Notes under the pieces: generated by a model
What the model was told of the DNA's origin: nothing
The model's database searches: none
What the model saw: only the letters and a program-made list of their open reading frames with translations
Assembly: GCA_949959185.1 (NCBI GenBank)
Contig: CATLIX010000013.1
Coordinates: forward strand, 1-59,903
DNA: 59,903 nucleotides
Direction of reading: 5' to 3'
Origin: an uncultured Eubacterium sp.
GTDB taxonomy: Bacteria > Bacillota > Clostridia > Lachnospirales > Lachnospiraceae
Made by a program: the position numbers and the translations under genes
In this document: piece after piece, positions 2,072-20,286 of the stretch
Layout: every line of letters begins with the position of its first letter
Position numbering within the stretch: position 1 is the first letter of the stretch

Positions 2072-2138
2072 CAGATAATTGCGAAACTATATAATTATCA
2101 AAATTTCATGTACAATTATTGAATTACGCAATTACCTG
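2072..2138 (-). mobile_element. Miniature palindromic element, copy A
   Basis: A 67-bp element with terminal inverted repeats: CAGATAATTGCG on the left, and on the right the complement of CAGGTAATTGCG. The interior holds TCAAAATTTCATGTACAATTA, which is shared with copies B (11308-11426) and C (19364-19412). No flanking direct duplication is visible, so this copy may be older. It starts at the predicted transcription start of ferritin and would be copied into the ferritin mRNA leader. Confidence 0.6.
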
Positions 2139-2143
2139 GATAT

Positions 2144-2172
2144 ATTATAATCTTTCTGTTCTTCCATATCAA
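2144..2172 (-). promoter_or_regulatory. Ferritin promoter
   Basis: The minus strand shows TTGATA (2172-2167), a 17-bp spacer and TATAAT (2149-2144). Transcription would begin at about 2137, giving a leader of about 93 nt that contains palindromic element A. Confidence 0.75.
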
Positions 2173-2223
2173 GTGAAAAGTAAAACGGTTTCCTCCCGGA
2201 CAATGAAATGTTCAGCGGAAAAA

Positions 2224-3018
2224 TCAGGTATCATCAGCCTGAGCATCTCCGGTTAACGCCATAATCGTCTCTGTCACTTCCTCCAGTGCCCGCTTAATCT
2301 CTATGCTGGTGCGGCCCATACCCTGCGCAAGTTTCTGAACTTCATCTGCGACTACAGAAAAACCTTTTCCTGTTTCTCCCGCCCTGGCCGCTTCTATGCT
2401 GGCATTCAGCGCAAGTATTTTCTGACGCTTACTGAAACCCTCAATCTGCTTTGTATTATCATTGGCAACTACAATCTGCTTTGCCGCTTTACTGATTCCT
2501 TCCCTCATTTCCAGAACAAGTTTCTGATTCTGCATGGTTGCATAGCTCGCTCTGACAAACATATTGATGACATCCCCCAGTAACTGTGCGGAAGCCTCAA
2601 TTTCTTTTTCTGTCTTAACATTTACCTCGCGAAGGGCCCTGATATACTCATCCTCATCAATACCCAAATCCCTGGCTGTCTGCCTGAACTTTTCCTCATC
2701 CGGATTTTCCGGCAATACCTGCCCGCCAATCACGCTCCCCAGCACGGTTCCATCTTCTAATGTAATGGGTATCCCGAAATCAACCAGCCCTGCATGGCAG
2801 GGATATACTCCCTTCCCCTCTCTGTCATTTTTCTCACACCTTTTTCGTCCTTCGTCGCTGCCTCTGGTCAGCTTAATGCAAAAATCCGTAAAATTATAAC
2901 AGTCGCTGATATACTCACCATCATCTCCTACTGCCACCGTTGCAAGACCGGTACTGCTCGCCCAGTTATTCATGATTTCTTCGAACTTTTCCATATCACA
3001 AAAATCCTGTAATTTCAT
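2224..3018 (-). CDS. PocR-domain chemosensory protein, soluble
   Basis: A 264-residue protein. The N-terminal 165 residues form a PocR sensor domain (conserved Cys/His segment [20 protein letters not shown] and the IGGQVL motif). The C-terminal part is a shortened methyl-accepting chemotaxis signalling hairpin with the tip [14 protein letters not shown]. No membrane segment is present, so it would sense a cytosolic ligand, probably a small organic compound, and pass the signal to CheA/CheW. The start at 3018 is chosen because of its AAGGAGG site; the frame extends upstream to 3246 without a ribosome binding site. The signalling helices are much shorter than in standard receptors. Confidence 0.8.
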
Positions 3019-3145
3019 AATAGCCTCCTTTTCCAGCATACTCCATACCATTACAATATTTGAAAACAGGCAATCAACCGCCGATACTGGAAATCTTTCG
3101 TTCTGGTAAATCACCATATGCCGGAGGACTGATCTTATAACTACC

Positions 3146-3174
3146 ATTCTAGAACAATATAAAGATAAAATCAA
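3146..3174 (-). promoter_or_regulatory. Promoter of the PocR chemosensor gene
   Basis: TTGATT (3174-3169), a 17-bp spacer and TAGAAT (3151-3146) on the minus strand, about 128 bp before the chosen start codon. This supports the downstream start at 3018. Confidence 0.6.
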
Positions 3175-3244
3175 TGTCACTTTACATTTTTTTGACAAAA
3201 TAACCGGAAAAAGTATTAAATCAGACAGATTACAATCGGTTTTC

Positions 3245-3263
3245 ATACGCCATTTTGGCGTAT
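3245..3263 (-). terminator. Stem-loop after carB
   Basis: ATACGCC and GGCGTAT form a 7-bp stem with a 5-nt loop, beginning 17 bp after the carB stop codon. No T-run follows, so it may be an mRNA 3' end or processing hairpin rather than a full terminator. Confidence 0.4.
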
Positions 3264-3279
3264 CCCCTGGTCGATGATT

Positions 3280-6200
3280 TTAAATATTCTTCACCTTCGC
3301 AATATCAATCAAATCCAGTTCTTCGCTGGCACAGGCATGTTCCAGACTTTCCGCCAGGGCATTGGCTGTGTCCATGGCGGTGATACAGTACACACCTGTC
3401 TCAATGGCATTCCGGCGGATTAAAAATCCGTCCCGGCTCTTATCCCGTCCCTGGGTTGGAGTATCAATGACAAGGTCTATTTTATGGCCCAGAATCAAAT
3501 CCATTACATTGGGAGACTCCTGGGAAATCTTATTGATACGTCTTGCGCTGACTCCATGATTCTGCAGGTATTTCGCAGTGCTTCTGGTGGCGTAAATCTT
3601 ATAGCCCAGCGCTTCAAACCGTTTCGCCACCTCCACGGATTCCGGCTTGTCCGCATCTTTTACCGTCATAATCATCTGTTTGTATTTCGGAAGCTGTACG
3701 CCCGCTCCCAGAAATGCCTTGTACAATGCCTCGTCAAAGGTTCTGGCAATTCCAAGGCATTCTCCGGTGGATTTCATTTCCGGCCCAAGGCTGATTTCCG
3801 CTCCACGGAGCTTCTCAAAGGAAAATACCGGCATTTTGATGGCCACATACTCTGCTTCCGGCGCAAGTCCCGTGGGATAGCCCATACCCTTTAAAGTATT
3901 GCCGATAATAACCCTTGTGGCCAGATCCACAATGGGAATTCCCGTTACTTTGCTGATATAGGGAACAGTCCGGGAAGAACGGGGATTTACCTCAATCACG
4001 TACACATCCTCATCCATGGCAATAAACTGGATATTGATTAAGCCCACCACATGAAGTGCCCTGGCCAGTCTCCTGGTGTATTCCACGATTTTCTCCTTTA
4101 CCTCCTGGCTGATGGTGGGGGCAGGATAAACGGAAATGCTGTCGCCGGAATGTACGCCTGTCCGCTCAATATGCTCCATAATGCCGGGAATCAGAATATC
4201 CGTGCCATCGCAGACCGCGTCCACCTCAATCTCTTTTCCCTGTAAATACTTGTCCACCAGAATAGGATGGTCCTGGGCAATCCGGTTGATGATTTCCATA
4301 AATTCTTCGATTTCCTCATCAGTATACGCAATCTGCATCCCCTGGCCGCCCAGCACATAGGAAGGACGTACCAGAACGGGATAGCCCAGGCGGTTGGCCA
4401 CTTCCCTGGCCTCCTCAGCAGTAAATACCGTGCCGCCTGCCGCCCGCGGGATTTCCGTCTCCTCCAGAATTTTATCGAATAATTCCCGATCTTCGGCTGC
4501 ATCCACATCTTCTGCCCTGGTGCCGAAAATTGGAACGCCCATCTTCATCAGGCTTTCCGTCAGTTTGATGGCCGTCTGGCCGCCGAACTGCACCACAGCC
4601 CCATCGGGTTTTTCCAGACGGACAATACTTTCCACATCCTCCGGAGTCAGGGGCTCAAAATACAGTTTATCCGCAATGTCAAAGTCTGTGGACACCGTTT
4701 CCGGATTATTATTTATAATAATGGTCTCATAGCCCTCTTTTGCAAAAGCCCAGGTACAGTGCACGGAGCAGTAATCAAACTCAATCCCCTGGCCGATACG
4801 GATTGGCCCGGAACCCAGCACCAGCACCTTTTTGCGCTTTTCGGAACCGGACGCTCCGGTTTTCCCGCCGGAACTTCCCTGCTCTCTGTCGGGAAAGGCT
4901 TCATTCTCACTGCCGAAGCAGGAATAGTAATAAGGAGTCTCCGCTGCAAATTCCGCCGCACAGGTATCCACCATTTTAAAAGCTGCGGTAATTCCATGTT
5001 CATAGCGCAGATTACGGATTTCCTGTTCCTGTTTTCCGGTAAGGGCGGCAATGACAGAATCCGGAAATTCCAGCCGCTTTGCCTCTTTCAGAAGCTCCGG
5101 CGTCAGTGTTTCCTGTTTCAGTTGTTCTTCCATTTCTACCAGAATGGAAATTTTATCAATAAACCAGAGGTCTATTCTGGTAATCTCGTGAATTTTTTCA
5201 TAGGAAATCCCCTGGCGCAGCGCCTCGGCAATCACCCAGATTCTCCGGTCGTCCACCTTTTTCAGGCGCTCCCTTAACTCCTCTCTGGAAAGGCCGCTGA
5301 AATCATAGCTCATCATGCTGTCCACATGCTGTTCCAGGGAACGGATGGCTTTCATCAGCGCCCCCTCGAAACTGGTGCAGATACTCATCACCTCTCCCGT
5401 AGCCTTCATCTGAGTAGTCAGACTCCGCTTTGCGGTAATAAATTTGTCAAAGGGCAGTCTTGGGATTTTTACCACGCAGTAATCCAGCATGGGTTCAAAG
5501 CTGGCGTATGTTTTACCGGTAATGGCATTTCTGATTTCATCCAGGGTATATCCCAGGGCAATTTTTGCCGCCACCTTCGCAATGGGATACCCCGTAGCCT
5601 TGCTCGCCAGCGCAGAGGAACGGCTCACACGGGGATTTACCTCAATCACACAGTATTCAAAGCTGGCGGGATGAAGTGCATACTGAACGTTACAGCCTCC
5701 GGTAATATTCAGCTCGGAAATAATATTCAGTGCGGAGGTGCGCAGCATCTGGTATTCCTTATCCCCCAGTGTCTGAGACGGAGCCACCACGATACTGTCT
5801 CCGGTATGAACGCCCACCGGGTCAATGTTCTCCATGTTGCAGACGGTAATACAGTTGCCGGCCCCGTCACGCATCACCTCATATTCAATTTCCTTCCAGC
5901 CTGCAATACAGCGTTCCACCAGCACTTCCCCTACCCGGCTGAGCCTCAGGCCGTTGGCAAGGATTTCCATTAATTCTGTTTCATTACGGGCAATTCCGCC
6001 TCCGCTTCCCCCCAGGGTATAAGCCGGACGCAGCACCACCGGGTAACCGATGGTATTGGTAAATGCAATTCCGTCTTCTATATTATTAACTACCATGGAA
6101 GGGGCGCAGGGTTCTCCTATTTTCTCCATGGTGTCTTTAAAGGCCTGCCGGTCTTCCGCTTTAAAAATTGTCTCCGCTGTGGTTCCTATCAGCTTTACTC

Positions 6201-6534
6201 CATGTTTTTCCAGAAACCCGGACTCTGCCAGCTCCATGCCCAGATTCAGCCCTGCCTGTCCTCCCAGGGTGGGAAGCACGCTGTCCGGCTGTTCTTTCAG
6301 AATAATCTGTTCCAGCACCTTTGCAGTCAGAGGTTCAATGTACACCTGATCTGCAATTTCCTTATCTGTCATAATGGTGGCCGGATTGGAATTGACCAGA
6401 ACCACCTCCACCCCCTCTTCTTTCAGAGAGCGGCACGCCTGAGTTCCTGCGTAATCAAATTCTGCGGCCTGCCCGATGACAATAGGGCCGGAACCAATCA
6501 CTAATACTTTTTTAATTTCAGAATTTTTTGGCAT
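3280..6534 (-). CDS. carB: Carbamoyl-phosphate synthase large subunit
   Basis: A 1084-residue protein that makes carbamoyl phosphate from bicarbonate, ammonia (supplied by CarA) and two ATP, for pyrimidine and arginine synthesis. Two homologous halves are visible. Each starts with a KVLVxGSGPIxIGQ nucleotide-binding segment (residues about 9 and 570) followed by an ATP-grasp domain. The C-terminal 120 residues are the MGS-like regulatory domain. A Gly/Ser/Lys-rich linker of about 20 residues between the halves (near residues 545-568) is longer than usual. The start codon overlaps the carA stop by one base (TAATG), indicating translational coupling. Confidence 0.98.
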   Translation of the reverse strand: MPKNSEIKKVLVIGSGPIVIGQAAEFDYAGTQACRSLKEEGVEVVLVNSNPATIMTDKEIADQVYIEPLTAKVLEQIILKEQPDSVLPTLGGQAGLNLGMELAESGFLEKHGVKLIGTTAETIFKAEDRQAFKDTMEKIGEPCAPSMVVNNIEDGIAFTNTIGYPVVLRPAYTLGGSGGGIARNETELMEILANGLRLSRVGEVLVERCIAGWKEIEYEVMRDGAGNCITVCNMENIDPVGVHTGDSIVVAPSQTLGDKEYQMLRTSALNIISELNITGGCNVQYALHPASFEYCVIEVNPRVSRSSALASKATGYPIAKVAAKIALGYTLDEIRNAITGKTYASFEPMLDYCVVKIPRLPFDKFITAKRSLTTQMKATGEVMSICTSFEGALMKAIRSLEQHVDSMMSYDFSGLSREELRERLKKVDDRRIWVIAEALRQGISYEKIHEITRIDLWFIDKISILVEMEEQLKQETLTPELLKEAKRLEFPDSVIAALTGKQEQEIRNLRYEHGITAAFKMVDTCAAEFAAETPYYYSCFGSENEAFPDREQGSSGGKTGASGSEKRKKVLVLGSGPIRIGQGIEFDYCSVHCTWAFAKEGYETIIINNNPETVSTDFDIADKLYFEPLTPEDVESIVRLEKPDGAVVQFGGQTAIKLTESLMKMGVPIFGTRAEDVDAAEDRELFDKILEETEIPRAAGGTVFTAEEAREVANRLGYPVLVRPSYVLGGQGMQIAYTDEEIEEFMEIINRIAQDHPILVDKYLQGKEIEVDAVCDGTDILIPGIMEHIERTGVHSGDSISVYPAPTISQEVKEKIVEYTRRLARALHVVGLINIQFIAMDEDVYVIEVNPRSSRTVPYISKVTGIPIVDLATRVIIGNTLKGMGYPTGLAPEAEYVAIKMPVFSFEKLRGAEISLGPEMKSTGECLGIARTFDEALYKAFLGAGVQLPKYKQMIMTVKDADKPESVEVAKRFEALGYKIYATRSTAKYLQNHGVSARRINKISQESPNVMDLILGHKIDLVIDTPTQGRDKSRDGFLIRRNAIETGVYCITAMDTANALAESLEHACASEELDLIDIAKVKNI

Positions 6535-7604
6535 TACCGGTCCCCTCCCATCATACTGATAAAACGGTCAAATAAGTAACTGCTGTCCTGAGGCCCCGGA
6601 CAGGCTTCCGGGTGAAACTGAACGGTAAACACAGGCTTCCGGATATATCTTAACCCTTCGTTTGTTCCGTCGTTTACATTGATAAAAGACGGAACCGCCA
6701 CAGAATCGTCCAGGTGTTCCGTATCCACCACATACCCATGGTTCTGGGAGGAAATATATACCCGCCCTGTTTCCAGATCTTTCACCGGATGATTGCCGCC
6801 CCGGTGGCCGTATTTCATTTTATGGGTATCAGCCCCGGCGGCCAGAGCCATAAGCTGATGGCCCAGGCAGATGGCAAACACCGGAATACCCGATTCGTAT
6901 AATTTCCGGATTTCTTCTATTATATCGTCGCATTCCTTTGGGTCTCCCGGCCCGTTGCTTAACATAATTCCGTCCGGATGGGAAGAAAGAATTTCTTCCC
7001 CTGAGGTATGGGCCGGATAAACCGTGACGCTGCAGCCTCTGTTCTGCAGAGATTTTGCAATATTTTTCTTGGCCCCCAAATCCAGAAGGGCTACTCTTTT
7101 CCCTTTTCCTTTTAACGTGGAAATCTCTTTGCATGTCACTTTATCCACCACGTTTCCGGTCCGGTACGCTTTCAGCCTGGGAATAATATCTTCCATCCGA
7201 TAATTTTCATCGGTGGTAATCATCCCGTTCATGGTTCCCTTTTCCCGGAGGATTTTCGTCAGGGCCCTGGTATCAATTCCTGCAATTCCCGGAATATCAT
7301 GTTCAGCCAGAAAATCCTGCACCGTGCCCTGACTGCGGAAATTACCGGGCATCCGGGACAGTTCCCGGACAATATACCCTTCCGCCCAGGGACGTTCCGA
7401 TTCCATATCCGGCGTAATCCCATAATTGCCAATCAGGGGATATGTCATGGCAACTGCCTGTCCGGCATAGGAGGGGTCTGTCAGAACTTCCAGATATCCC
7501 GTCATGGAAGTGTTAAAGACAATTTCACTGATTACTTCTCCGGCAGAGCCAATGCTGATGCCTTCAAACACCGTTTCATCCTCCAGTATTAGAAATGCTT
7601 TCAT
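6534..7604 (-). CDS. carA: Carbamoyl-phosphate synthase small subunit
   Basis: A 356-residue glutamine amidotransferase subunit that hydrolyses glutamine and channels ammonia to CarB. The N-terminal half is the CPSase small-chain domain. The C-terminal half is a class I amidotransferase domain with the nucleophile Cys near residue 245 in AICLGHQLMA and the His/Glu pair near residue 331 in FHPEACPGP. The ribosome binding site is AAAGGGCGG. It is first in a two-gene operon with carB. I saw no PyrR-type antiterminator in the short leader. Confidence 0.98.
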   Translation of the reverse strand: MKAFLILEDETVFEGISIGSAGEVISEIVFNTSMTGYLEVLTDPSYAGQAVAMTYPLIGNYGITPDMESERPWAEGYIVRELSRMPGNFRSQGTVQDFLAEHDIPGIAGIDTRALTKILREKGTMNGMITTDENYRMEDIIPRLKAYRTGNVVDKVTCKEISTLKGKGKRVALLDLGAKKNIAKSLQNRGCSVTVYPAHTSGEEILSSHPDGIMLSNGPGDPKECDDIIEEIRKLYESGIPVFAICLGHQLMALAAGADTHKMKYGHRGGNHPVKDLETGRVYISSQNHGYVVDTEHLDDSVAVPSFINVNDGTNEGLRYIRKPVFTVQFHPEACPGPQDSSYLFDRFISMMGGDR

Positions 7605-7717
7605 TTATTTACCGCCCTTTCTGTCTGATTTTTTGCAAAAAAAAAAGAGTTCATTGCACCATTGCAGTCTTTTTCCTGTTCTTTTACCCATTATTTATTT
7701 ATGCCTGAATTGTAAAG

Positions 7718-7746
7718 ATTTTAACACACTGCAGACCATTTTTCAA
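7718..7746 (-). promoter_or_regulatory. carAB promoter
   Basis: TTGAAA (7746-7741), a 17-bp spacer and TAAAAT (7723-7718) on the minus strand. The leader to carA is about 107 nt and contains an A-rich run but no obvious attenuator. Confidence 0.65.
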
Positions 7747-7803
7747 GATTTTTATTATAACAGTCAAAATCACAGGTGCAAAGCCTTTATCTGATTTTCC
7801 GTA

Positions 7804-7832
7804 TTGACACATTACTTATAACATGTTAATAT
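7804..7832 (+). promoter_or_regulatory. Strong promoter of the first sugar ABC transporter
   Basis: A perfect TTGACA (7804-7809), 17-bp spacer and TAATAT (7827-7832). Transcription would start at about 7839 and leave a leader of about 238 nt before the binding-protein gene. The interval 7605-8076 otherwise contains only the divergent carAB promoter and the palindrome at 7840-7851. Confidence 0.8.
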
Positions 7833-7839
7833 TAATTCA

Positions 7840-7851
7840 CCAAAATTTTGG
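7840..7851 (+). promoter_or_regulatory. Operator-like palindrome
   Basis: CCAAAATTTTGG is a perfect 12-bp dyad starting at the predicted transcription start of the transporter operon. The position suits a repressor site. No regulator gene lies next to it, so the protein that binds is unknown. Confidence 0.4.
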
Positions 7852-8076
7852 CAATTTGTACATATGTCGGAGTATATCTCATTCCTTATTTGTACTATTT
7901 GCAGTGATTTTTTCAGTATATGTGTAATTTCATTGTTATTTTGCATATATATTCCGGATTTTCCGTATTGCCCTGCCAGAAGGCGGACGCACCGCCGGAT
8001 TACCGGCTGCTTCAGGACAACAGACGAATCCCTGTATTCTGACCATTACATTGCCTTTCATAAAAGGAGGAAAACT

Positions 8077-9396
8077 ATGAAAAAGAAAAATCTGGCAAAA
8101 GTTCTCGCCCTCTCTCTGAGTATGGCAGCAGCATTATCCCTGGCGGCATGTGGCAGCACCCCCACATCCAACAATGATACTAAAAAAGATGAAACGGAGA
8201 CCACACAGGAGAACAGCGGCGAAGAAACAAAGAAAGACAGCAGCGGCAAAACAGAAATCAGCGTGATTGCAGCTCAGTACGGTCAGAACACAGCAGACTG
8301 GTGGAAAACCTTTGAAACTGATTTCGAAAAAGACAACGAAGGCATTGACCTGAACGTGGAAGTTATTTCCTGGAATGATATTTCCACCACAGTCAACACC
8401 CGTGTTGCCAACAATCAGGCTCCTGATATTCTGAACATTGACGTATTTGCAGATTACCAGGCGGACGACCTGCTTCTTCCTGCAAAAGATTATGTATCAG
8501 ATGAAACCTACAACAAAATGTATGAAGCGTTCCTGGAGCAGTCAAATGTTGACGGAACCATCTGGGCTATTCCGGACCTTGCTTCTGCACGTGCCATGTA
8601 CTACAACAAAGATATCCTGGAAGGCGCCGGCGTGGAAGCTCCTCCCACCACGTGGGATGAACTGACAGAAGCCTGCAAGAAGATTAAAGAAAAATATCCG
8701 GATGTTTACCCATGGGGTATTGATATGACAACTGACGAAGGTCAGGCAGCATTCGCATACTATATCTGGAACAACGGCGGAGACTTCACAGACGCTGACG
8801 GAAACTGGACACTGAACAGCGCAGAAAATGTGGAAGCTATCGAATACGCTGTGGGACTTATCAATGATGGTTATACCAACACAGATCCTGCCAATGAAAC
8901 ACGTTATGACCTGCAGGATATGTTCGGAACCGGTAAAGTTGCCATGATGATCGCACCTAACAGTCTTCCCACCTATGTAAAAGACGGCGGCAATGAAGTA
9001 AACTACGGCATGGCTCCTATCCCCAACAACAACGGCACTTCCGTATCTGCCGGTGTTATGGACCGTTTCATGTGCTTTGACAATGAATACACAGACGAAG
9101 AAATGGAAGCAATCAAAACTTTCTTTGACTATTTCTTTGAAGACGAACGTTACTCTGCATGGGTTGAAATGGAAGGTTTCCTGCCTGCTACCAAGACCGG
9201 CGGCGAAGCTCTTGCAGCAAAAGACGAATCCATGGCTGAATGGATTGACATCGTAGGAAGCTGTAAATTCTATCCTACCGCAAAAACTGAGTGGGCAGAC
9301 GTAAAACAGGGTGTTATCAGTGCAGAACAGAATGCACTGTTAGGCGGAAATGTTCAGGAACTGCTTGATAGCTTACAGGCAGAAATTGCTCCGTAA
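8077..9396 (+). CDS. Sugar ABC transporter substrate-binding lipoprotein
   Basis: A 439-residue extracellular binding protein of the family 1 type. A lipoprotein signal ends with LSLAAC (lipidated Cys25), followed by a Ser/Thr/Lys/Glu-rich tether. The mature part has the usual features of the family: a PDILNIDVFADYQ segment, a WAIPDLASARAMYYNKD segment and a C-terminal helical lobe. The start at 8077 has an AAAGGAGG site; the frame extends upstream without one. It delivers a sugar, not identifiable from sequence, to the permeases encoded next. A strong hairpin follows the gene, which would leave it expressed above the permeases. Confidence 0.9.
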   Translation: MKKKNLAKVLALSLSMAAALSLAACGSTPTSNNDTKKDETETTQENSGEETKKDSSGKTEISVIAAQYGQNTADWWKTFETDFEKDNEGIDLNVEVISWNDISTTVNTRVANNQAPDILNIDVFADYQADDLLLPAKDYVSDETYNKMYEAFLEQSNVDGTIWAIPDLASARAMYYNKDILEGAGVEAPPTTWDELTEACKKIKEKYPDVYPWGIDMTTDEGQAAFAYYIWNNGGDFTDADGNWTLNSAENVEAIEYAVGLINDGYTNTDPANETRYDLQDMFGTGKVAMMIAPNSLPTYVKDGGNEVNYGMAPIPNNNGTSVSAGVMDRFMCFDNEYTDEEMEAIKTFFDYFFEDERYSAWVEMEGFLPATKTGGEALAAKDESMAEWIDIVGSCKFYPTAKTEWADVKQGVISAEQNALLGGNVQELLDSLQAEIAP

Positions 9397-9456
9397 CATT
9401 TTGTATCACCTGCATCCCAGGATGTGAACACGCAAGCCCTGATTAAGGCGAAATAT

Positions 9457-9484
9457 GAGGCCGGGCTGTTACAGGCCCGGTCTC
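9457..9484 (+). terminator. Attenuating hairpin between binding protein and permeases
   Basis: GAG-G-CCGGGC pairs with GCCCGG-T-CTC around an 8-nt loop and is followed by ATTTTAT. It probably terminates part of the transcripts or stabilises the upstream mRNA, as is common after binding-protein genes. Confidence 0.65.
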
Positions 9485-9511
9485 ATTTTATAAGAATGAT
9501 GAGGTGAACCT

Positions 9512-11249: not shown

Positions 11250-11295
11250 ACCCTGATATAAAAACAACTGTGGCAGAGTATGGAACACCATACCC

Positions 11296-11307
11296 TGCCA
11301 TATTTTT
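11296..11307 (+). repeat. 12-bp direct repeat, left flank of element B
   Basis: TGCCATATTTTT directly precedes palindromic element B and is repeated exactly at 11427-11438 directly after it, as expected for a target-site duplication. Confidence 0.75.
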
Positions 11308-11426
11308 CAGGTAATTGCGAAACTCAATAATTATACCAATTTCATGTGCAATTCAAAAAATATTTCATAGAAAGTGCAGAAATTATACATGAAATTTTGA
11401 CAATTTAACAGTTTCGCAATTGCCTG
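11308..11426 (+). mobile_element. Miniature palindromic element, copy B (longest)
   Basis: A 119-bp element whose ends are 17-bp inverted repeats with one mismatch (CAGGTAATTGCGAAACT on the left; the right end is the complement of CAGGCAATTGCGAAACT). Each arm also contains a version of AAATTTCATGTRYAATT, so nearly the whole element could fold into one hairpin. It has no coding capacity. Exact 12-bp direct repeats (TGCCATATTTTT) flank it. This fits a miniature inverted-repeat transposable element moved by a transposase encoded elsewhere. Confidence 0.75.
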
Positions 11427-11438
11427 TGCCATATTTTT
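11427..11438 (+). repeat. 12-bp direct repeat, right flank of element B
   Basis: Second exact copy of TGCCATATTTTT, immediately after the right end of element B. Confidence 0.75.
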
Positions 11439-11456
11439 ATCGGAAAGGAGAATAAA

Positions 11457-12464
11457 ATGAGTAAATCACAAAGTACGTCTCGTTCTGCTTCGGCAGAAAG
11501 AAAACATTTCCCGGCAAAACTTATTTCCTTCTTATTAATTTTCACAGTTTCTCTGTTTCAGATGTCCGGCATCGTTCAGGCGGCATCCACCCGTCCCGCG
11601 GACAAAAACAAAGCCGGGAACGGCAACATCCTTGTGGGTGTTTCAGGCACCTTTGAACAGAAAGACAAATCTGCAATCCTGAGCAGAGTCAACGCCATCC
11701 GCAAAGAAGCCTGCGAAAAAGGCTATCCCAATCCTGCCAATGGACGCAAACTCACCATGGCAGATTATGTACCCATGAAATGGTCCTCTGATTTGGAATG
11801 GATTGCACAGCTCAGAGCTGCGGAAAGTACCGTAAATGAAAGCCATACCCGCCCAAATGGGCTGAGCTGTTTCAGTATCCGCCGAAATAACCAGCAAAGC
11901 TGGGCTGAGAATCTGGCATGGAATTATTCCGGACTGATGCAGGGAATGGAACAGTGGTACGGAGAAAAAAATGACTGGGTAAAACAGAATTCTCATGCTG
12001 TCACCGGACATTATACCAGCTTAATCAATCCAAAGTATCAATACATTGGCCTTGGTTCCTTTGTCCGCAGTTCCGGCGGCTGGTATGGCATCGCCGGTGA
12101 ATTCAGCAGCAGCAACACAGGGTCTGAAAAACAATCCAAAGTAAAAGGAAGCTATATGCAAACCCTGGAAGTTGGCAAAGCAAACATAACACAGATGTCT
12201 TTAAAGGCGCCTTCCACAATAAAGGTGAAAAAAACAAAAACCTTAACGGTATCCTGCAAGGTTGTATACCCTGGCATTATGGGCGGGAACAACAGCACGA
12301 ATGCAAACATTTTAAAAGGCATTACCTGGCGTTCCTCAAAGCCTTCCGTACTGACCATCAGTTCAAAGGGCAAAATCACCGCAAAGAAAGCCGGAAAAGC
12401 TACAATCACAGCAAAAATCAAGGGTAAAAAAACGTTGAAAAAGACTGTCACTGTCACAAAATAA
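11457..12464 (+). CDS. Secreted CAP-domain protein with C-terminal Ig-like domain
   Basis: A 335-residue exported protein. The signal peptide ends near residue 43 (VQAAS). Residues about 65-210 form a CAP/SCP-like domain with conserved HTRPNG, ENLAWN and GHY segments. The last 95 residues carry an Ig-like BIG_2 repeat with the typical WRSSKPSVLTIS and GKATITAKIKG strands. CAP proteins of this type are surface or secreted proteins of uncertain role. The start follows GGAAAGGAG. It lies downstream of element B, so it probably has its own promoter or reads through from the transporter operon. Confidence 0.85.
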   Translation: MSKSQSTSRSASAERKHFPAKLISFLLIFTVSLFQMSGIVQAASTRPADKNKAGNGNILVGVSGTFEQKDKSAILSRVNAIRKEACEKGYPNPANGRKLTMADYVPMKWSSDLEWIAQLRAAESTVNESHTRPNGLSCFSIRRNNQQSWAENLAWNYSGLMQGMEQWYGEKNDWVKQNSHAVTGHYTSLINPKYQYIGLGSFVRSSGGWYGIAGEFSSSNTGSEKQSKVKGSYMQTLEVGKANITQMSLKAPSTIKVKKTKTLTVSCKVVYPGIMGGNNSTNANILKGITWRSSKPSVLTISSKGKITAKKAGKATITAKIKGKKTLKKTVTVTK

Positions 12465-12522
12465 ATCAACACGGCTGCTTCAGCGAGCGTTTCACATATG
12501 CAGATATGATAAGAACTTTTTA

Positions 12523-12575
12523 TTCTACAGGAAGATACTTTCACATGTCAGCATAACAAGGTCTTTCCTGTAGAA
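12523..12575. terminator. Bidirectional stem-loop between convergent genes
   Basis: TTCTACAGGAA (12523-12533) pairs perfectly with TTCCTGTAGAA (12565-12575) across a 31-nt loop. It is flanked by T-rich sequence on the left and A-rich sequence on the right, so it can act for both converging transcripts. Confidence 0.55.
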
Positions 12576-12595
12576 CAAAAAGGAGGGCAGAAATT

Positions 12596-13033
12596 TTACG
12601 CTTTTTTGTTAAATACGGAAAACTCCTCATAATCTGCCATATTGAAAAATTTCTCAATATCATTGTGGGGAAACAGCATTTCCATGTAAAGGCTTCCCAA
12701 CAGTTCTTTCACCTGTTCCGAATCCACCTGTTCAACGGGAAGTTCTTTCAACTCCATCTGTTTCAGATTGGCCAGAACCGCTTCTATCTGCTGTTTGTCC
12801 GGCGGCGCCTTTTCAAAAACCGGCACAGGTTCCGGAACCTGCTTTTCTTCCCCCGGCTCCTGCTCCGGTTGCAGAATTTCCCTGGTTTCCGGCATCCGGT
12901 ACACAAGATTCCTGCATGTCTTTTCGAAACACTCCGGGTCATACTTTGCAAGATATTTCAAATCTTCCACCGTCAGGGTATGTTTGTTATGTATTTTAAT
13001 GTAAATATTCACAAGACGCGTATCTTTTTCCAT
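12596..13033 (-). CDS. Uncharacterised acidic protein
   Basis: A 145-residue protein with no signal peptide or membrane segment. An N-terminal basic/helical part (about residues 1-50, with TLTVEDLKYLAKYDPECF) is joined by a Pro/Glu-rich linker (about 52-80) to a helical C-terminal part. The start has a GGGAGG ribosome binding site. It lies after the truncated HEPN gene and overlaps that frame by 38 bp. I do not recognise the family and cannot assign a role. Transcription from the DUF262 promoter is likely. Confidence 0.65.
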   Translation of the reverse strand: MEKDTRLVNIYIKIHNKHTLTVEDLKYLAKYDPECFEKTCRNLVYRMPETREILQPEQEPGEEKQVPEPVPVFEKAPPDKQQIEAVLANLKQMELKELPVEQVDSEQVKELLGSLYMEMLFPHNDIEKFFNMADYEEFSVFNKKA

Positions 13034-13250
13034 GGCAGCCTCCCTTCTTGTTCCTGATATTCCTGGTTATCTGGCTACAGGCAATGATATAATGTACCAT
13101 ATGAGAATATAAAATTAATACCAGAGACTTACGATACCTGTTTTTATCATGTTCTGTAATGTAATTTAACTGATTTTTAAAAAATACAATTTCTTCCTGT
13201 CTCCATTTCAACTCATTTTCTAAATTTGCTCTGAATTCATCAGCTGTCAA
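12996..13250 (-). pseudogene. Truncated HEPN-type gene (MAE_28990/MAE_18760-like)
   Basis: From a TTG start at 13250 (GCAGGAG site, overlapping the DUF262 stop) the protein shows ENELKWRQEEI and then YRKSLVLILYSH. This resembles the start of HEPN-like nucleases often encoded next to DUF262, which continue with W-E-G-F after the LYAH/LYSH motif. Here the similarity stops after His, and about 30 unrelated codons (MVHYIIACSQ...) lead to a stop. Only about 52 of an expected 200 or more residues remain, so the catalytic part is lost. An ATG at 13274 is an alternative start without good spacing. Confidence 0.55.
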
Positions 13251-14328
13251 GTATCTCCTGCACTCCTTCCGCAAATATCTTTATCCTTGTTTTTACACCA
13301 TTCACACTTCCTGTATTATAAAATTTTAATTCCTCTCCAAATTTAATCTCGTTCAGTTTATCAACTAATTTTGACAAATCTTCACATGCTGATAATGAAT
13401 CAATCATTTTTGCAACGGAGACAAACATTCCGTCAAAATAATATAATACAAATTCTTTTTTGTATATTTCATTTTTCGTCTTTCCGGAAAAAGCATCTTT
13501 CCCAAATTTTTCAGCGAAAAATCTGGAAGTTTTACAGAATATATCCCATTCCTTATCACAGTTAAATTCCCGTTCACCAGTAGTAATGTCCTCCAGATAG
13601 TTTGTAAGATACTCTGTTACGGGATATTTATAACTGTCCAAATCATTTTTCATGGCAAGATAACGCAATACCAGTTCCTGCCTGTATTGCAATCGTTCCC
13701 TCTCATTTCCAATGCGAGATACAATTGTTCGAAAATCTTTATTTTCACTGCATTTTTCCAGAAAATCTATTCCTTTAGAGCCAAGTAATCTTACAGTACA
13801 ATTCCTGATTTCCTGTGCAGACAGCAATTCTCCTCCTGTATTCAACCGTTTGAACATATGATATTTAAGAGAAGGTTCACTTTCCTTCCGGATTACTTCC
13901 ATTCTCACAAAACTTCTCTTGATTTTTATCTGCAAGGCTCTGGGCATAAGCTCAAACGATAAATTATTTAACTCAGGCACTATATCGCACCCGCACAGAA
14001 TCAGGGGCTCCTGTTCATCATTTTCCAGTTTTTCTCCTCTGAAACGCAAATAACTGGATATCCTCTGCAAACCATCTATCAGCTCATACTCTCCGTCTTT
14101 TATTTCAATTACAAATATTGGCGGAACCGGCATCTCCAAAATTAATGATTCAATAAACCGGGATTGTTTTTCCGGTTCCCAGCGAAACATACGCTGATAA
14201 TCCGGAGATATAATCAGTTCTTTATTCTGATACATATCATACAATTCATTAAAAGACACATCCAGACTTCTGGTTCTGATATTAACAATCTGGCTGTCCA
14301 CATTTTCTATCAAATTCTCTATAGCCAT
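13240..14328 (-). CDS. DUF262 domain protein (GmrS-like/ParB-like)
   Basis: A 362-residue protein with the DUF262 fold. PDYQRMFRWEPEKQSRFIESL (residues about 39-59) and IDGLQRISSYLRF (about 83-95) correspond to the conserved nucleotide-binding/hydrolysis motifs, and NTGGELLSAQEIRN (about 162-175) is also typical. DUF262 proteins occur in anti-phage and restriction-like systems, often with a nuclease partner. Here the partner gene that follows is truncated. No DUF1524 nuclease domain is attached. The region is AT-richer than its neighbours, which suggests transfer (inference). Confidence 0.85.
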   Translation of the reverse strand: MAIENLIENVDSQIVNIRTRSLDVSFNELYDMYQNKELIISPDYQRMFRWEPEKQSRFIESLILEMPVPPIFVIEIKDGEYELIDGLQRISSYLRFRGEKLENDEQEPLILCGCDIVPELNNLSFELMPRALQIKIKRSFVRMEVIRKESEPSLKYHMFKRLNTGGELLSAQEIRNCTVRLLGSKGIDFLEKCSENKDFRTIVSRIGNERERLQYRQELVLRYLAMKNDLDSYKYPVTEYLTNYLEDITTGEREFNCDKEWDIFCKTSRFFAEKFGKDAFSGKTKNEIYKKEFVLYYFDGMFVSVAKMIDSLSACEDLSKLVDKLNEIKFGEELKFYNTGSVNGVKTRIKIFAEGVQEILDS

Positions 14329-14497
14329 ACCATTTATCCTTTCTTAAAATTATTTTATACATACCTCCATACTTTTTACATATTCGATATCATAATATTT
14401 ACTTTTCTTTTTATTATACACGAAAAGAACCGGCAGCACAACTTTCCCATACCTGACATTTTGCTCTGAAATCCTGTACTATTTTTTCGGAATAAAC

Positions 14498-14527
14498 TTT
14501 TCCTTTTGGGTTTATTTATGATATAAT
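14498..14527 (+). promoter_or_regulatory. Probable cheC promoter
   Basis: TTTTCC (14498-14503), an 18-bp spacer and a perfect TATAAT (14522-14527), 29 bp before the cheC start. The -35 box is weak. Confidence 0.5.
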
Positions 14528-14556
14528 GGAAAAAAATTATTTAAGGAGAGATTCTT

Positions 14557-15180
14557 ATGGGCGTAACAGATATTACCAAATTAGACGACATGCAGTTAAG
14601 CGTACTGACTGAAATCGGAAACATCGGTTCCGGCAATGCCGCAACGGCTCTGGCAACTTTACTGAACACCTTTGTAGATATAGAAATTCCCAATATCCAT
14701 CTGCTCAATTTTGAAGACGTTTCCCAGTATCTGGGCGGCCCGGACAATTATGCACTGGGACTGACCGTTATGCTGGACGGAGATATTCAGGGAATGATGC
14801 TGCAAATCATCCAGAAAGAATTTGCCGCAAAACTGATTAATACATTTTATGAAAAAGAGATTTCCTCACTGGATGATATCAGCGAAATGGACTTATCCGT
14901 TGTGCGGGAAATGGGCAATATTACCACTGCCGCATATGTAAATTCCATTGCCAAAATGACAAATATTTTTATCAATATCACTCCCCCTCAGGACCATATT
15001 GATACCGTGGGCAACATTCTGGCGATTCCCTCCCACAATTTCACCTCCCTTGGCAAAAAGGTGCTGTTCATTGACGAAAGCTTCTGTATCTCCGGCACAC
15101 AGATTAAGGGAAGTATGATTCTGATTCTGGAGTATGCTTCCATGAACGTTCTGTTCCAGAAACTGGGGCTTCCTGTCTGA
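14557..15180 (+). CDS. cheC: CheC-type chemotaxis phosphatase
   Basis: A 207-residue protein with the two pseudo-repeats of CheC. Active-site-like motifs are EIGNIGSGNAATAL (residues about 19-32) and EMGNITTAAYVNS (about 117-129), each with the Glu/Asn pair used to hydrolyse phospho-CheY. It would help adaptation of the chemotaxis response in the cytosol. It stands alone between an AT-rich locus and a dehydrogenase. Two receptors are in the window (2224-3018 and 36574-38259), but no cheA/W/Y. The ribosome binding site is AAGGAGAG. Confidence 0.9.
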   Translation: MGVTDITKLDDMQLSVLTEIGNIGSGNAATALATLLNTFVDIEIPNIHLLNFEDVSQYLGGPDNYALGLTVMLDGDIQGMMLQIIQKEFAAKLINTFYEKEISSLDDISEMDLSVVREMGNITTAAYVNSIAKMTNIFINITPPQDHIDTVGNILAIPSHNFTSLGKKVLFIDESFCISGTQIKGSMILILEYASMNVLFQKLGLPV

Positions 15181-15187
15181 TACGGCA

Positions 15188-15320
15188 AAATATCCATACC
15201 ATACAGAAGGCTGCCATGCCTGTAATCAAATACCCCGCTGCAATCAACAGGGTATCAAACTTGCAACGCTGCAGAGCAGCGGGGTATTTGACCCTCGCGG
15301 CATTCGTCAAATATCCATAC
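15188..15320. repeat. Structured intergenic element with 15-bp inverted repeat and 12-bp direct repeat borders
   Basis: CAAATACCCCGCTGC (15227-15241) pairs perfectly with GCAGCGGGGTATTTG (15276-15290) around a 34-nt loop. The segment is bordered by two exact copies of AAATATCCATAC (15188-15199 and 15309-15320). No T-run follows on either strand, so it is not a standard terminator. The function is unknown; it could be a mobile palindromic repeat. Confidence 0.55.
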
Positions 15321-15435
15321 AAGCATGGCTATTTTCCTCATTGCTCGCGGGAATAAAAATTCACGGGTACGGCAGCTTTCTGGCTAATAGTTTACGCGGG
15401 GCGCTTTGCAGGGCGCTTTTATCCGGAAATGCCTG

Positions 15436-16230
15436 TCACGTCTTCTGAGTGCCAGCACCTTTCCTGCCTCCAGACTTCTTCTTTTTCTGCTGATGAGCCG
15501 CAATCCGGATATAAAGTTCTTCCGGCAGAAATCTTCCCAGCGTCATGGCCAGACGCACGGAACATTTCGGAACAATTACCGTTTTTCCCCGTTTCATCTG
15601 TTCATAACCGCAGCGGGCACAGTAAGCGGCGCTGATTCCCTTTAAGGCAAATTCCACGTTTGCCACCTGATTGAATTCCGTATCAACCGGTCCCGGACAG
15701 AGACATCCAATGTAAACCGGACTTTTTTCGCTGCGCAGTTCCTCTGATGCCGCTCTTGTCAGACTTGTCACATAGGATTTGGACGCATAGTAGGCGGCCA
15801 TATAAGGTCCTGCCGGCATCAGACCTGCACAGGAAGCAACATTTAAAATATAACCTCTGTTCTGTTTCATCATTTTTCTCAGGGCCAGCTTGGTCAGAAT
15901 GTGAAGGGCTCTTACATTCACATCCAGCATATCCAGCTCTTTCTGCAGACTGCCGGCTGCAAAGGCGCCGAAATTTCCAAATCCCGCATTATTAATCCAG
16001 ATTTCCACCGGCCTGTCCTCCACTGTCTGAAACAGGCGATAACAGTCTTCTGTTTTTCTCAGGTCAACTGTGACAATCTCACATTCTGTCTTTAAATGCT
16101 TTTTCATCTTCTCCAGTCGTTCCTGCCTCCGGGCCGCCAGTATCAGGCTGTATCCTTCTCCCGCCAGAATCCCGGCGAATTCTGCTCCGATTCCGGAGCT
16201 TGCCCCTGTAATCACTGCATATTTTTTCAT
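15436..16230 (-). CDS. Short-chain dehydrogenase/reductase
   Basis: A 264-residue classical SDR. The cofactor-binding TGASSGIG motif is at residues 8-15, NNAG near 80-83, and the catalytic Ser (VASCAG) and YYASK follow in order. The C-terminus is basic and low in complexity (KKKKSGGRKGAG). The substrate cannot be told from sequence; an oxidation or reduction of a hydroxyl/keto group with NAD(P)H is expected. The start has an AAAGGA site. The exported protein gene upstream (16311-17573) is in the same direction, with 80 bp between. Confidence 0.88.
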   Translation of the reverse strand: MKKYAVITGASSGIGAEFAGILAGEGYSLILAARRQERLEKMKKHLKTECEIVTVDLRKTEDCYRLFQTVEDRPVEIWINNAGFGNFGAFAAGSLQKELDMLDVNVRALHILTKLALRKMMKQNRGYILNVASCAGLMPAGPYMAAYYASKSYVTSLTRAASEELRSEKSPVYIGCLCPGPVDTEFNQVANVEFALKGISAAYCARCGYEQMKRGKTVIVPKCSVRLAMTLGRFLPEELYIRIAAHQQKKKKSGGRKGAGTQKT

Positions 16231-16310
16231 TTATGATAAATTCCTTTCTTTGTTCCGATGAACCGTGCCGGCAGCCCCTGACAGTCTGAGCCGGATGCGG
16301 CAGCACATGT

Positions 16311-17573
16311 TCATATTCCTGTCTGCGCAATATACTGCTGCCAGTATTTTCGTTCCTGATAAGCCTTATCCCATGAAAACCGGACGTTCATTCGTTCTGC
16401 CCTCTCAACGGTTCTTCTTAAAATTCCCCTCTGATTCGTCCAGAATAATCTGCTGCTGGAAAAAGCACAGATTCTGTCCACGGGATATATACATTTCAGG
16501 TACGCGGGGGTACTGTAACAGGTGGCCGAAGATTCAAACAGCAGATATGTGGTCTCTCCGTCACATACCAGTTCTTCCGCCATGGGCGGAAAACTGCAGG
16601 TATTGTAACAGCAGTAAAGATTCTTTCCGGTAAAGCAGTCTTTCACCACCTGATAAAAATAAATATTGGAATGAAAATATCTGCCTCTGGAGGTTGAAAC
16701 TGCCATGCAGGTTACCCCGCCCTGCTCCGTAAAGGTAACTCCGTTGGCAAAGCCCGGAATTACGATTTCTTCCTGCTTTTTCAGCGTGAAACGTTCTCCC
16801 TCTTCTGTCATCTGCTTCTCCACAGTATAACTTCTCAGCATTCCCATGCCGCTGACCCGGTTTCCGTAAGTTCCCACCCACAGCCTGTTGTCGTGCCAGG
16901 TTACAAAAGAAGCCACCGCACCGCAGGAAACGTTCTGGTCATATTCCGGCAGTTTATAGCTGCTTTTTCCGGAACCGACCGCCTGTTGGATAGTATCATA
17001 GGAAATCACACTGCACTGCCGGTCCGTACTTTTGGCAATCCAGATATTAGTTCCGTCAAAGGCCACGCCTCCCACATGATTGATATCAGGAAGCACCACC
17101 GTGGTCAGAAGCTGCCTGTTCTCCGGATTCCTGTCAGACAATACATACAGCACGGAAGGGTTGACTTCACGCCTGTTTTCTGTTTTATTACCCGCAGGAG
17201 CTCCATTGTCATAGGCTGTCACCAGCATATAGTCTCCGGCCACACAGATTCCCTGGGGAACCATCCGATTGCAGCTCTCCCCCAGAATATCAGTAGATTC
17301 CAGTCCCGGCACCGCAGTAGAGTAGTCTGCCTGATACTGGGACTGGAAGAATCCGTAACGGTTTAAGGTATTCTGAAATTCTTTTTCATACCGGAACCTG
17401 GTACTGGTGGAGACTTCTGACGTCTGTTCTGTTTTCAATGTTTCCATATTTTTGAAAAAAGAAACGGCCGCATGGCGTCCTTCTCCTGCTGTCAGGAGAT
17501 ACCATGCAGCCGCTGTCAGACATAATAACACACTGTATTTTAAAATGAAAGTTCTTTTTATCTTTTTTCTCAT
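16311..17573 (-). CDS. Exported propeller-like protein of unknown function
   Basis: A 420-residue protein with an N-terminal basic stretch and one hydrophobic segment (about residues 12-30), so it is secreted or anchored. The rest shows repeated blade-like strands such as VPQGICVAGDYMLVTAYDN, VGGVAFDGTNIWIAKST and NRLWVGTYGNR, which suggest a beta-propeller of the NHL/YncE style. Several Cys residues are present in the second half. There is no catalytic signature. The start at 17573 follows AAAGGCGG. Ligand and function are unknown. Confidence 0.65.
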   Translation of the reverse strand: MRKKIKRTFILKYSVLLCLTAAAWYLLTAGEGRHAAVSFFKNMETLKTEQTSEVSTSTRFRYEKEFQNTLNRYGFFQSQYQADYSTAVPGLESTDILGESCNRMVPQGICVAGDYMLVTAYDNGAPAGNKTENRREVNPSVLYVLSDRNPENRQLLTTVVLPDINHVGGVAFDGTNIWIAKSTDRQCSVISYDTIQQAVGSGKSSYKLPEYDQNVSCGAVASFVTWHDNRLWVGTYGNRVSGMGMLRSYTVEKQMTEEGERFTLKKQEEIVIPGFANGVTFTEQGGVTCMAVSTSRGRYFHSNIYFYQVVKDCFTGKNLYCCYNTCSFPPMAEELVCDGETTYLLFESSATCYSTPAYLKCIYPVDRICAFSSSRLFWTNQRGILRRTVERAERMNVRFSWDKAYQERKYWQQYIAQTGI

Positions 17574-17690
17574 ACATTTTCCGCCTTTGTTGCAGTTTTA
17601 CAACATTTCTGTCTTTTTTATAGTATAACCAACAATTCTTTAGACAGCATTAACAAAAAATGTATATTCTGTAAACTTTTTTTGGCAAAA

Positions 17691-18902
17691 TTATCCAATA
17701 TCCGGAAGCATATGCCGGATTATATTCAGAATCTCGCCGGAAGCCTCCTCTTTGCTCATCCGCTCCAGACGGACAATATCTGTTCCGGTAATCAGGGTGA
17801 GCACATTGGTGTCCGTGCCAAATCCGGCTCCTTCCACTTTCAGATTATTGGCGGCAATCATGTCAAGATGTTTCCGCTCCAGCTTGGCTCTGGAATTCTC
17901 CTCCAAATCTCTGGTTTCCATGGAAAATCCGCACAGAATACTGTGGATTTCTCCCGCCTGTTTCATCCGGCCCAGCTCTGCCAGAATGTCTTTTGTCCGC
18001 TCCAGCCGAATGGATGATGCACCCTCTGATTTCTTAATCTTGTCTTCCGCCACTTCTGCGGGCCGGTAATCCGCCACTGCCGCAGCCTTGATAATCACGT
18101 CCATTTCCGGCGCCCGGCGGATAACTTCCTGATACATTTCTTCTGCAGATATTACATGTACCGTTTCCACAAACATGGGCGGATTCAGGGCTGTGGCTCC
18201 GGTTATCAGCGTAACTTCCGCTCCTCTTAACATGGCTGTTTTGGCCAGTGCATATCCCATTTTTCCCGTGGAGTGATTGGTAATATAGCGTACCGGGTCA
18301 ATGGCTTCCTGTGTGGCTCCGGCAGTGACCAGTACCTTCTGTCCGGCCAGGTCTTTGGGAAAGGCCAGTTCTTTCAGAACATAGTTCACCAGTACTTCTT
18401 CAGAAGGCAGTTTTCCTTCTCCTGTATCACCGTTGGCCAGCATTCCCGTATCGGGCGGAATGATTTCGTAACCGAATCGTTCCAGCTTACTCAGATTGTC
18501 CTGGACAATGGGGTTATGGTACATATTGTGGTTCATGGCCGGGGCCAGCAGGATTTTGCAGGTGCAGGCCATCACCGTTGTGGTCAGCATGTCGTCTGCA
18601 ATGCCGTTTGCAATTTTCCCGATGACATTTGCGGTAGCCGGGGCCAGCAGAACCAGATCCGCCTGTTTGGCCAGCGCCACATGCTCTACGGAAAATTCAA
18701 AATTCCGGTCGAAAGTATCAATCAGGCATTTATTCCCGGTGAGGGTTTCAAAGGTGGTGGCGGTGATAAAATTTGTGGCATTCTCCGTCATCAGCACATG
18801 AACGTTGCAGTGGAGCTTCTTCAGCATTCTGGCCACGTTGGGCATTTTGTACGCGGCAATACCTCCCGTCACCCCCAGCAATACGGTTTTTCCTTGTAAC
18901 AT
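17691..18902 (-). CDS. coaBC: Bifunctional phosphopantothenoylcysteine decarboxylase/phosphopantothenate-cysteine ligase
   Basis: A 403-residue fusion enzyme that joins cysteine to 4'-phosphopantothenate and decarboxylates the product to 4'-phosphopantetheine. The N-terminal flavoprotein domain (1-180) has the active-site His in VEHVALAK and the substrate clamp PAMNHNMYHNP. The C-terminal CoaB domain (about 190-403) has the ITNHSTGKMG segment. It lies 48 bp after panD in the same direction, linking pantothenate synthesis to coenzyme A in one transcription unit. Confidence 0.97.
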   Translation of the reverse strand: MLQGKTVLLGVTGGIAAYKMPNVARMLKKLHCNVHVLMTENATNFITATTFETLTGNKCLIDTFDRNFEFSVEHVALAKQADLVLLAPATANVIGKIANGIADDMLTTTVMACTCKILLAPAMNHNMYHNPIVQDNLSKLERFGYEIIPPDTGMLANGDTGEGKLPSEEVLVNYVLKELAFPKDLAGQKVLVTAGATQEAIDPVRYITNHSTGKMGYALAKTAMLRGAEVTLITGATALNPPMFVETVHVISAEEMYQEVIRRAPEMDVIIKAAAVADYRPAEVAEDKIKKSEGASSIRLERTKDILAELGRMKQAGEIHSILCGFSMETRDLEENSRAKLERKHLDMIAANNLKVEGAGFGTDTNVLTLITGTDIVRLERMSKEEASGEILNIIRHMLPDIG

Positions 18903-18950
18903 ATTCGGATATTCTTCCTTTCTGCAGATTCTGAATCCTTTCAGATTTTA

Positions 18951-19334
18951 TCAGGAAATCTCCCCGTGTTTTTCATAAGTGGTAATTCTGGAAATCCTGT
19001 TTTCCTCGTCCACAAACACCACCTGAGGCCGGAAGTCTTTCGCTTCCTCCGGGGTCATCTGGGCATAGGCCATAATAATAATATGGTCTCCGGTCTGTAC
19101 CTGTCTGGCTGCGGCTCCGTTCAGGCAGATCATGCCGCTGCCCGGCTCTCCCATAATGGTATAGGTCTCAAAGCGGTTTCCGTTCTCAATGTCCACAATC
19201 TGCACATTTTCATATTCCAGGATTCCGGCTGCTTCCAGAAGCTCCGGGTCTACCGTGATACTTCCCACGTAGTTCAGCTCTGCCTGTTTTACCACTGCCC
19301 GGTGGATTTTTCCTTTTAACATTTTAAAATACAT
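18951..19334 (-). CDS. panD: Aspartate 1-decarboxylase proenzyme
   Basis: A 127-residue pyruvoyl enzyme that makes beta-alanine from aspartate. Self-cleavage between Gly24 and Ser25 in NYVGSITVD creates the pyruvoyl group, matching the usual position. Lys9 and Tyr58-type residues are also in place (GKIHRA near the start; [13 protein letters not shown] around 54-67). The start at 19334 has an AAAGGAG site; Met5 is an alternative. A palindromic element (19364-19412) separates it from panC. Confidence 0.97.
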
Positions 19335-19351
19335 GGTTGTTCTCCTTTTGT

Positions 19352-19363
19352 GGTTACTGTTCC
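19352..19363 (+). repeat. 12-bp direct repeat, left flank of element C
   Basis: GGTTACTGTTCC is repeated exactly at 19413-19424. The pair brackets element C and looks like a target-site duplication. The second copy includes the panC stop codon. Confidence 0.65.
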
Positions 19364-19412
19364 CTGGTAATTGTACATGAAATTCTGATAACCGGCCTGT
19401 TTCGCAATTGCC
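19364..19412 (-). mobile_element. Miniature palindromic element, copy C (short form)
   Basis: A 49-bp element between panC and panD. On the minus strand it reads GGCAATTGCGAAAC, then TTATCAGAATTTCATGTACAATTACC, matching elements A and B. Exact 12-bp direct repeats flank it. The insertion duplicated the last bases of panC, so the reading frame is intact. As the flanking GG could belong to either repeat or element, the duplication may be 10 to 12 bp. Confidence 0.65.
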
Positions 19413-19424
19413 GGTTACTGTTCC
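19413..19424 (+). repeat. 12-bp direct repeat, right flank of element C
   Basis: Second exact copy of GGTTACTGTTCC. It overlaps the 3' end and stop codon of panC. Confidence 0.65.
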
Positions 19425-20266: not shown

Positions 20267-20286
20267 GGTTTCCTCCATTTCATACA

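Follow-up and report, generated by a model that had tools for sequence, protein, structure and literature searches.

Three short intergenic palindromes, here called copies A, B and C, lie in the window, by which we mean the whole 59,903-nucleotide stretch of DNA from an uncultured Eubacterium sp. (Lachnospiraceae) that was analysed. They raise the question of whether such sites are inserted DNA and, if so, what moved them. An earlier note on this DNA had proposed a family of miniature elements reduced in size by internal deletion, and had associated their target duplications with IS4/IS231-type transposases. Our analysis indicates that the window copies are deletion derivatives of a single family of miniature inverted-repeat transposable elements (MITEs) present in this Lachnospiraceae genus, and that an insertion sequence (IS) of 1.76 kb resident there probably mobilises them in trans.

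An insertion family shrunken from a foldback element

The window sites are members of one multicopy insertion family. Allowing up to three mismatches, the 17-bp end has five matches in the window, a number attained in none of 100 dinucleotide shuffles. The same search returned 108 matches in the window's genome and 134 in G026, a second genome of the species; the reversed pattern returned 9 and 12, respectively. Both the grouping of the three sites and the search for further copies that the earlier note had recommended are borne out by these counts.

Insertion is most directly seen at copy B, which is flanked by exact 12-bp repeats, and whose site in the sister genome G004 is unoccupied and carries a single TGCCATATTTTT. 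The earlier note had named empty sites with both repeat copies, or a lack of further copies in the genome, as grounds for refutation; both checks favour its reading. Exact 12-bp repeats also flank copy C, as had been noted for both sites. Copy C, however, has two exact readings, either 49 bp with the 12-bp repeat GGTTACTGTTCC or 51 bp ending CCGG with the 10-bp repeat TTACTGTTCC, such that the limits first assigned to A and B stand while those of C are one of two equal choices. The panC reading frame (19415-20287) has its stop codon within the right duplication of C. Comparison of the malG-CAP and panC-panD gaps among relatives, as the earlier note had suggested, was fruitful for the first and not for the second. 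By eye, C is absent from all 26 other panC-panD gaps that were read, and these gave no clean empty site because the gap is too diverged; the one in L151 does contain a short stretch resembling AATTTCAT. Copy A likewise yielded no clean empty site, with the G004 match spanning one side only.

Duplications were surveyed in 40 stretches of G026 together with the three window sites, counting direct repeats 9-13 bp long that had no more than one mismatch at the edge and a score of at least 8. Ten of these 43 stretches, C among them, yielded no end pair, and the remainder gave 35 pairs, of which at least four (L217, the second of L228, L235 and L237) are poor end matches that may not be elements. 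Duplications of 9-13 bp were present in 22 of the 35 pairs and in 0 of 192 combinations in which flanks were exchanged between copies. With the same score, 12 of 17 MITE copies in six other genomes of the genus have duplications, one of merely 8 bp.

The full-length MITE is about 285 bp long, nearly self-complementary throughout, with ends NAGGYAATTGCGAAACT and an 88-nt hairpin at its centre. Removal of L233 from 37 complete copies before alignment left 36 from seven genomes, across which the longest closed reading frame is 86 aa. When folded as single-stranded DNA, one full-length copy reaches -67.9 kcal/mol compared to a shuffle mean of -27.9 (z -11). In the alignment, 40 of 85 predicted pairs change on both sides with pairing kept, and 149 paired cells are changed on both sides versus 35.6 in shuffles.

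Copies A, B and C are deletion products of this 285-bp foldback, in keeping with the earlier proposal that internal deletion accounts for their sizes. The internal junction of B is the same as in L218 and L222, and that of A (CAGATAATTGCGAAACT...AATTACGCAATTACCTG at its termini) is the same as in L201 and L209. Junctions common to copies at different sites suggest either renewed movement, by elements already reduced to 119 and 67 bp, or more than one occurrence of an identical deletion. The left end of C retains about 10 bp at most, CTGGTAATTG, which resembles both the full-length left end CAGGTAATTG and a stretch of the right arm TGGTAATTG, and the simplest origin of C would therefore be a deletion between these two matches. 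A complete internal AAATTTCATGTACAATT motif is found in A, whereas B has a varied form of it and C its right-hand version only. None of 200 shuffles folds as well as A or as B, and only C folds no better than its own shuffles, being matched by 32 of 200. A covariance model of the 88-nt core has no match in the window because all three copies have lost the core. Coordinates are given in Table 1. A tRNA gene lies on the plus strand at 59661-59735 of the window.

Table 1. Positions of the three MITE copies and their target duplications in the window, with the genes on either side
Feature	Position	Strand	Basis or remark	Neighbouring genes
MITE copy A, 67-bp deletion form	2072..2138	.	direct reading; no clear target duplication	ferritin-domain gene / PocR/MCP-domain gene, both minus strand
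Copy B left target duplication TGCCATATTTTT	11296..11307	.	single copy in G004 empty site	
MITE copy B, 119-bp deletion form	11308..11426	.	direct reading	ABC-transporter permease gene / CAP-domain gene, both plus strand
Copy B right target duplication TGCCATATTTTT	11427..11438	.	exact 12-bp repeat	
Copy C left target duplication GGTTACTGTTCC	19352..19363	.	or TTACTGTTCC, 19354-19363	
MITE copy C, deletion form of 51 bp	19364..19414	.	or 49 bp, to 19412	pantoate ligase (panC) / aspartate decarboxylase (panD) genes, both minus strand
Copy C right target duplication GGTTACTGTTCC	19413..19424	.	or TTACTGTTCC, 19415-19424	

The probable partner insertion sequence

A search for an IS with the same terminal repeats, as the earlier note had advised, found one with near-identical ends within the species. 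In the window's draft genome, contigs break at copies of a sequence beginning TAGGTAATTGCGAAAC, and intact copies of 1739-1759 bp (about 1.76 kb), with GTTTCGCAAAYGCCTA as the other end, are present in G026 and G005. Bases 2-16 of the end are common to this IS and the MITE. Exact duplications of 10-13 bp flank 14 of 17 two-ended IS copies, in line with the length range that the earlier note had given for IS4/IS231-type transposases. Its transposase of about 485 aa matches DUF772 (45.4 bits, above the cut-off), scores 16.6 bits for DDE_Tnp_1 (below the cut-off of 23), and has IS1182 (NF033551) as its best NCBIfam match at 67.4 bits, well below the cut-off of 270. No IS4 model is among its NCBIfam matches at E 0.1 or better, and the IS4/IS231 attribution of the earlier note, not being supported by this result, was rejected as the partner type. 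Residues Y420, R423, E427 and K434 are invariant across four relatives and fit the Y-R-E-K signature. Among 80 related loci taken from named records, mostly labelled Lachnospiraceae or other Clostridia, 43 have both ends within thresholds, and 25 of these 43 have exact duplications of 9-13 bp, most commonly of 11 bp. In two places in G026 (L069 and L075), two IS copies lie head to tail with 10-13 bp between them that repeat the outer target duplication, an arrangement that looks like a tandem duplication of the IS.

Taken together, these observations point to a mechanism in which the DUF772/DDE transposase would make staggered cuts that give rise to the 9-13 bp duplications. The 285-bp MITE, with no room for a transposase, would be mobilised in trans by the 1.76-kb IS, and internal deletions of this form would then produce the forms of 119, 67 and about 50 bp. 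The family, its insertions and duplications, one empty site and the IS are all observed directly, and the role of this IS as the mobiliser is probable.

A number of observations weigh against this role. There is no clear similarity between IS and MITE past bases 2-16, and the first base is mostly C in MITEs of the window's species (17 of 19 full-length copies in G026 start CAG) and T in the IS; in favour of the IS, MITEs in six other genomes of the genus start with T and end with A, as it does, in 17 of 17 copies. The MITE-bearing genus genomes G010 (54 matches), G011, G019 and G020 have no transposase match, G014 (46 MITE matches) has the transposase only as broken pieces, and the window's draft genome shows the IS only as contig-edge pieces, with its five smallest contigs (C110-C114) reading N throughout. 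In addition, a scored duplication is missing from 13 of the 35 end pairs, including A. The MITE-rich genomes without a transposase match, the end of similarity after base 16 and the first base would all suit another transposase, lost or unsampled, whose element carries the inner sequence of the MITE, leaving the 1.76-kb IS with merely related ends. We regard this alternative as unlikely, given that the ends and the duplication length agree with the 1.76-kb IS and that no other element with such ends was found in the readable contigs, some small ones being unreadable. The three other PF01609 loci of the genome (IS4-like and IS1182-like) were tried as partners and rejected, having no end-like sequence at up to three mismatches in the fetched stretches. 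We also rejected the idea that the MITE is simply the IS with its interior deleted, since similarity ends after base 16. As for the window, the absence of a suitable transposase stated in the earlier note holds for PF01609, for which the window's contig has no match, other transposase families not having been searched for there.

Mobilisation by the 1.76-kb IS would place the window elements within a familiar class, that of bacterial MITEs mobilised by a full-length IS. Like others of this class, they are short, multicopy and without a transposase, have inverted terminal repeats and target duplications, and are accompanied by an IS whose ends almost match theirs. They differ in that the full-length form is a foldback throughout and has a conserved core that occurs also without these ends. 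The partner IS resembles the IS1182 family in its DUF772 domain, its sub-threshold DDE match and its best NCBIfam match, and is unlike it in scoring far under the family cut-off and in leaving 9-13 bp duplications. IS1272, which has been assigned to the IS1182 family, takes the place of a stem-loop and leaves no duplication, behaviour that is not universal in what is a mixed family (PMC5678879). The partner IS does not insert in the IS1272 manner, as its duplications are present.

The core hairpin and its arms

The 88-nt hairpin is more widely distributed than the MITE. When a full-length copy was compared with 397 genomes of the family, scoring two candidates per genome, its middle part alone, lacking the ends, turned up in four genomes from other genera. 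A covariance model trained on 15 MITE copies together with six other-genus loci had matches of E 1e-4 or better in at least 21 of 397 genomes, representing 17 of 334 genera, with 11 candidates scored per genome and E-values that are rough. The fetched stretches gave 91 core matches, two places being counted twice; removal of these two and of two partial or extra matches left 87 copies. The core matched 24 times in 32 MITE stretches of G026, and outside MITE ends it often forms the tip of other palindromes. A scan of viral contigs for the core loop gave 0 matches. In L371, a TwoAYGGAY RNA matching Rfam RF01731 at 109 bits occupies positions 1252-1417, and about 85 bases separate it from a copy of the core.

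The outer stem of the 87 copies has a median of 37 bp aligned, with no convincing stem in L416, L423, L428 and one copy in L467. Five copies in G135 match at 86/86, 92/92, 95/103, 143/151 and 100/100 arm positions; L399 and L463-L466 of this genome are palindromes of 86-151 bp per arm, near or at full perfection and differing by copy. True arm partners score a median of 24.5 (minimum 8.0) compared to a mean of 8.9 (maximum 25.5) for exchanged partners, which come partly from the same family, and the separation is incomplete. Pairing holds in 98.1% of the cells of the core alignment, in which 457 cells are changed on both sides versus 108 in shuffles; this alignment was fitted to the covariance model and hence leans towards it.

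The arms also appear to change together. Median arm likeness is higher within than between copies in G135 (0.94 versus 0.61), G259 (0.81 versus 0.52), G124 (0.79 versus 0.56) and G218 (0.71 versus 0.51), where shuffled 40-nt arms have a median of 0.41 at slightly different gap costs. In G420, G225, G110 and G419 the arms are equally or more alike between copies than within, as expected of amplified families; G419, from another genus, carries the window-type end, and four of its nine copies have repeats of 9-11 bp. When 12 cores of G425 were compared with 15 from the sister genome G259, ten pairs matched in their flanks. Five were kept, being clearly orthologous and retaining the two arms in each genome; four to L526 (about 100-150 bp aligned) and L527/L416 (one arm lost) were dropped. 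At the five sites, joint changes affect 23 positions and one-sided changes 3, and 123 positions are unchanged. Sixteen of the 23 joint changes come from the single locus L521/L413, where a replaced element is possible, and without it 7 joint changes stand against 3 one-sided ones. Between G040 and G364 (L388 and L389; 94% identity over 3 kb), the 145-bp core and arms are inverted at the same site.

Several side observations concern these elements. A possible second in-place inversion, L400/L396 (G064 and G380), is at 71% identity, and the self-similarity of the palindrome could explain it. Two cores of opposite orientation occur within about 250-360 bp in L526, L531 and L533 (G425 and G259). 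A CACAACCT-like sequence just beyond the right arm in L385, L404, L411, L415 and others in G259, and also in L393 and L468, is a possible element boundary. Empty-site comparison around the G259 cores did not reveal the origin of the arms, as relatives diverge past the upstream gene or lack the element.

A bolder view, to which we give somewhat less than even odds, has the 88-nt hairpin as the conserved tip of undescribed palindromic DNA elements of Lachnospiraceae. Their arms would be rewritten together by DNA-level copying from one arm to the other, opening or priming at the core, and the elements may flip in place. In this way the two arms of any one copy would remain almost perfectly complementary, and those of different copies would diverge until unrelated. 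In some lineages, the palindrome may have come to lie between IS-type ends, giving rise to the MITE family whose shrunken members are in the window.

It is also conceivable, and in our estimate rather unlikely, that the core is a transcribed structured RNA carried along by the MITE, a reading that would account for the strong covariation and conserved loops. Full-length MITEs in the symmetric alignment have a slight excess of G-U over A-C (71 versus 49, p 0.055), and a count with the RNAalifold structure, itself skewed in favour of G-U, gives 88 versus 30. The core itself has 1985 Watson-Crick pairs with only 24 G-U and 15 A-C, and in the outer stems A-C exceeds G-U (101 versus 71, p 0.027). 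This near-absence of G-U fits folded DNA, arm-to-arm copying or a function on two strands better than one RNA strand. Moreover, Rfam at gathering scores (window, L050 and L203) has no match over the core, and at E up to 5 in seven loci only far sub-threshold microRNA matches overlap cores.

Folded DNA could also mean that the core palindromes resemble REPINs and are moved as single strands by an HUH transposase. REPINs are reported to be multicopy miniature DNA hairpins with compensatory changes, conserved outer repeats and a variable spacer (PMC3116915), and the Watson-Crick covariation seen here would agree with such a form. The layout is reversed, with a conserved 88-nt tip and variable arms in the core elements, and MITEs of the window's genus have DDE-type ends and duplications, making this explanation improbable. 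Least probable is an origin by inheritance at fixed sites, with the palindromes serving as regulatory hairpins or terminators: hairpins with compensatory changes, co-directional genes around all three window copies and the closeness of other-genus cores to gene ends in many of 25 loci would suit it, but the exact duplications, the empty site of B and the absence of C, judged by eye, from the 26 other panC-panD gaps read do not. The paired A-run/T-run signature occurs in 36 of 87 core copies, versus 18 for its mirror pattern, and in 32 of 36 full-length MITEs; since the mirror pattern is about equally common in the latter (28 of 36), terminators are not shown.

Significance of the family and its core

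In kind, the window elements are ordinary MITEs, a new family as far as searched, and probably served by an IS1182-like IS. We found no paper on the MITE family or the core in a literature search with most subscription journals outside its coverage. A scan of genome contigs for CAGG-type MITE ends gave 0 matches, where other species have TAGG and records of near relatives were perhaps excluded. ERIC and similar intergenic palindromes are likewise dispersed and imperfect; they would differ from the elements described here, in which one core occurs in many unrelated arms.

The window elements connect MITEs found in gut Lachnospiraceae with one type of partner IS. If the arm-copying reading of the core is true, the core would carry more weight than the window elements themselves. 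A core that covaries with very few G-U pairs and has jointly changing arms would then bear on how bacterial palindromes keep their two halves matched, a question that could be tested in sister species.

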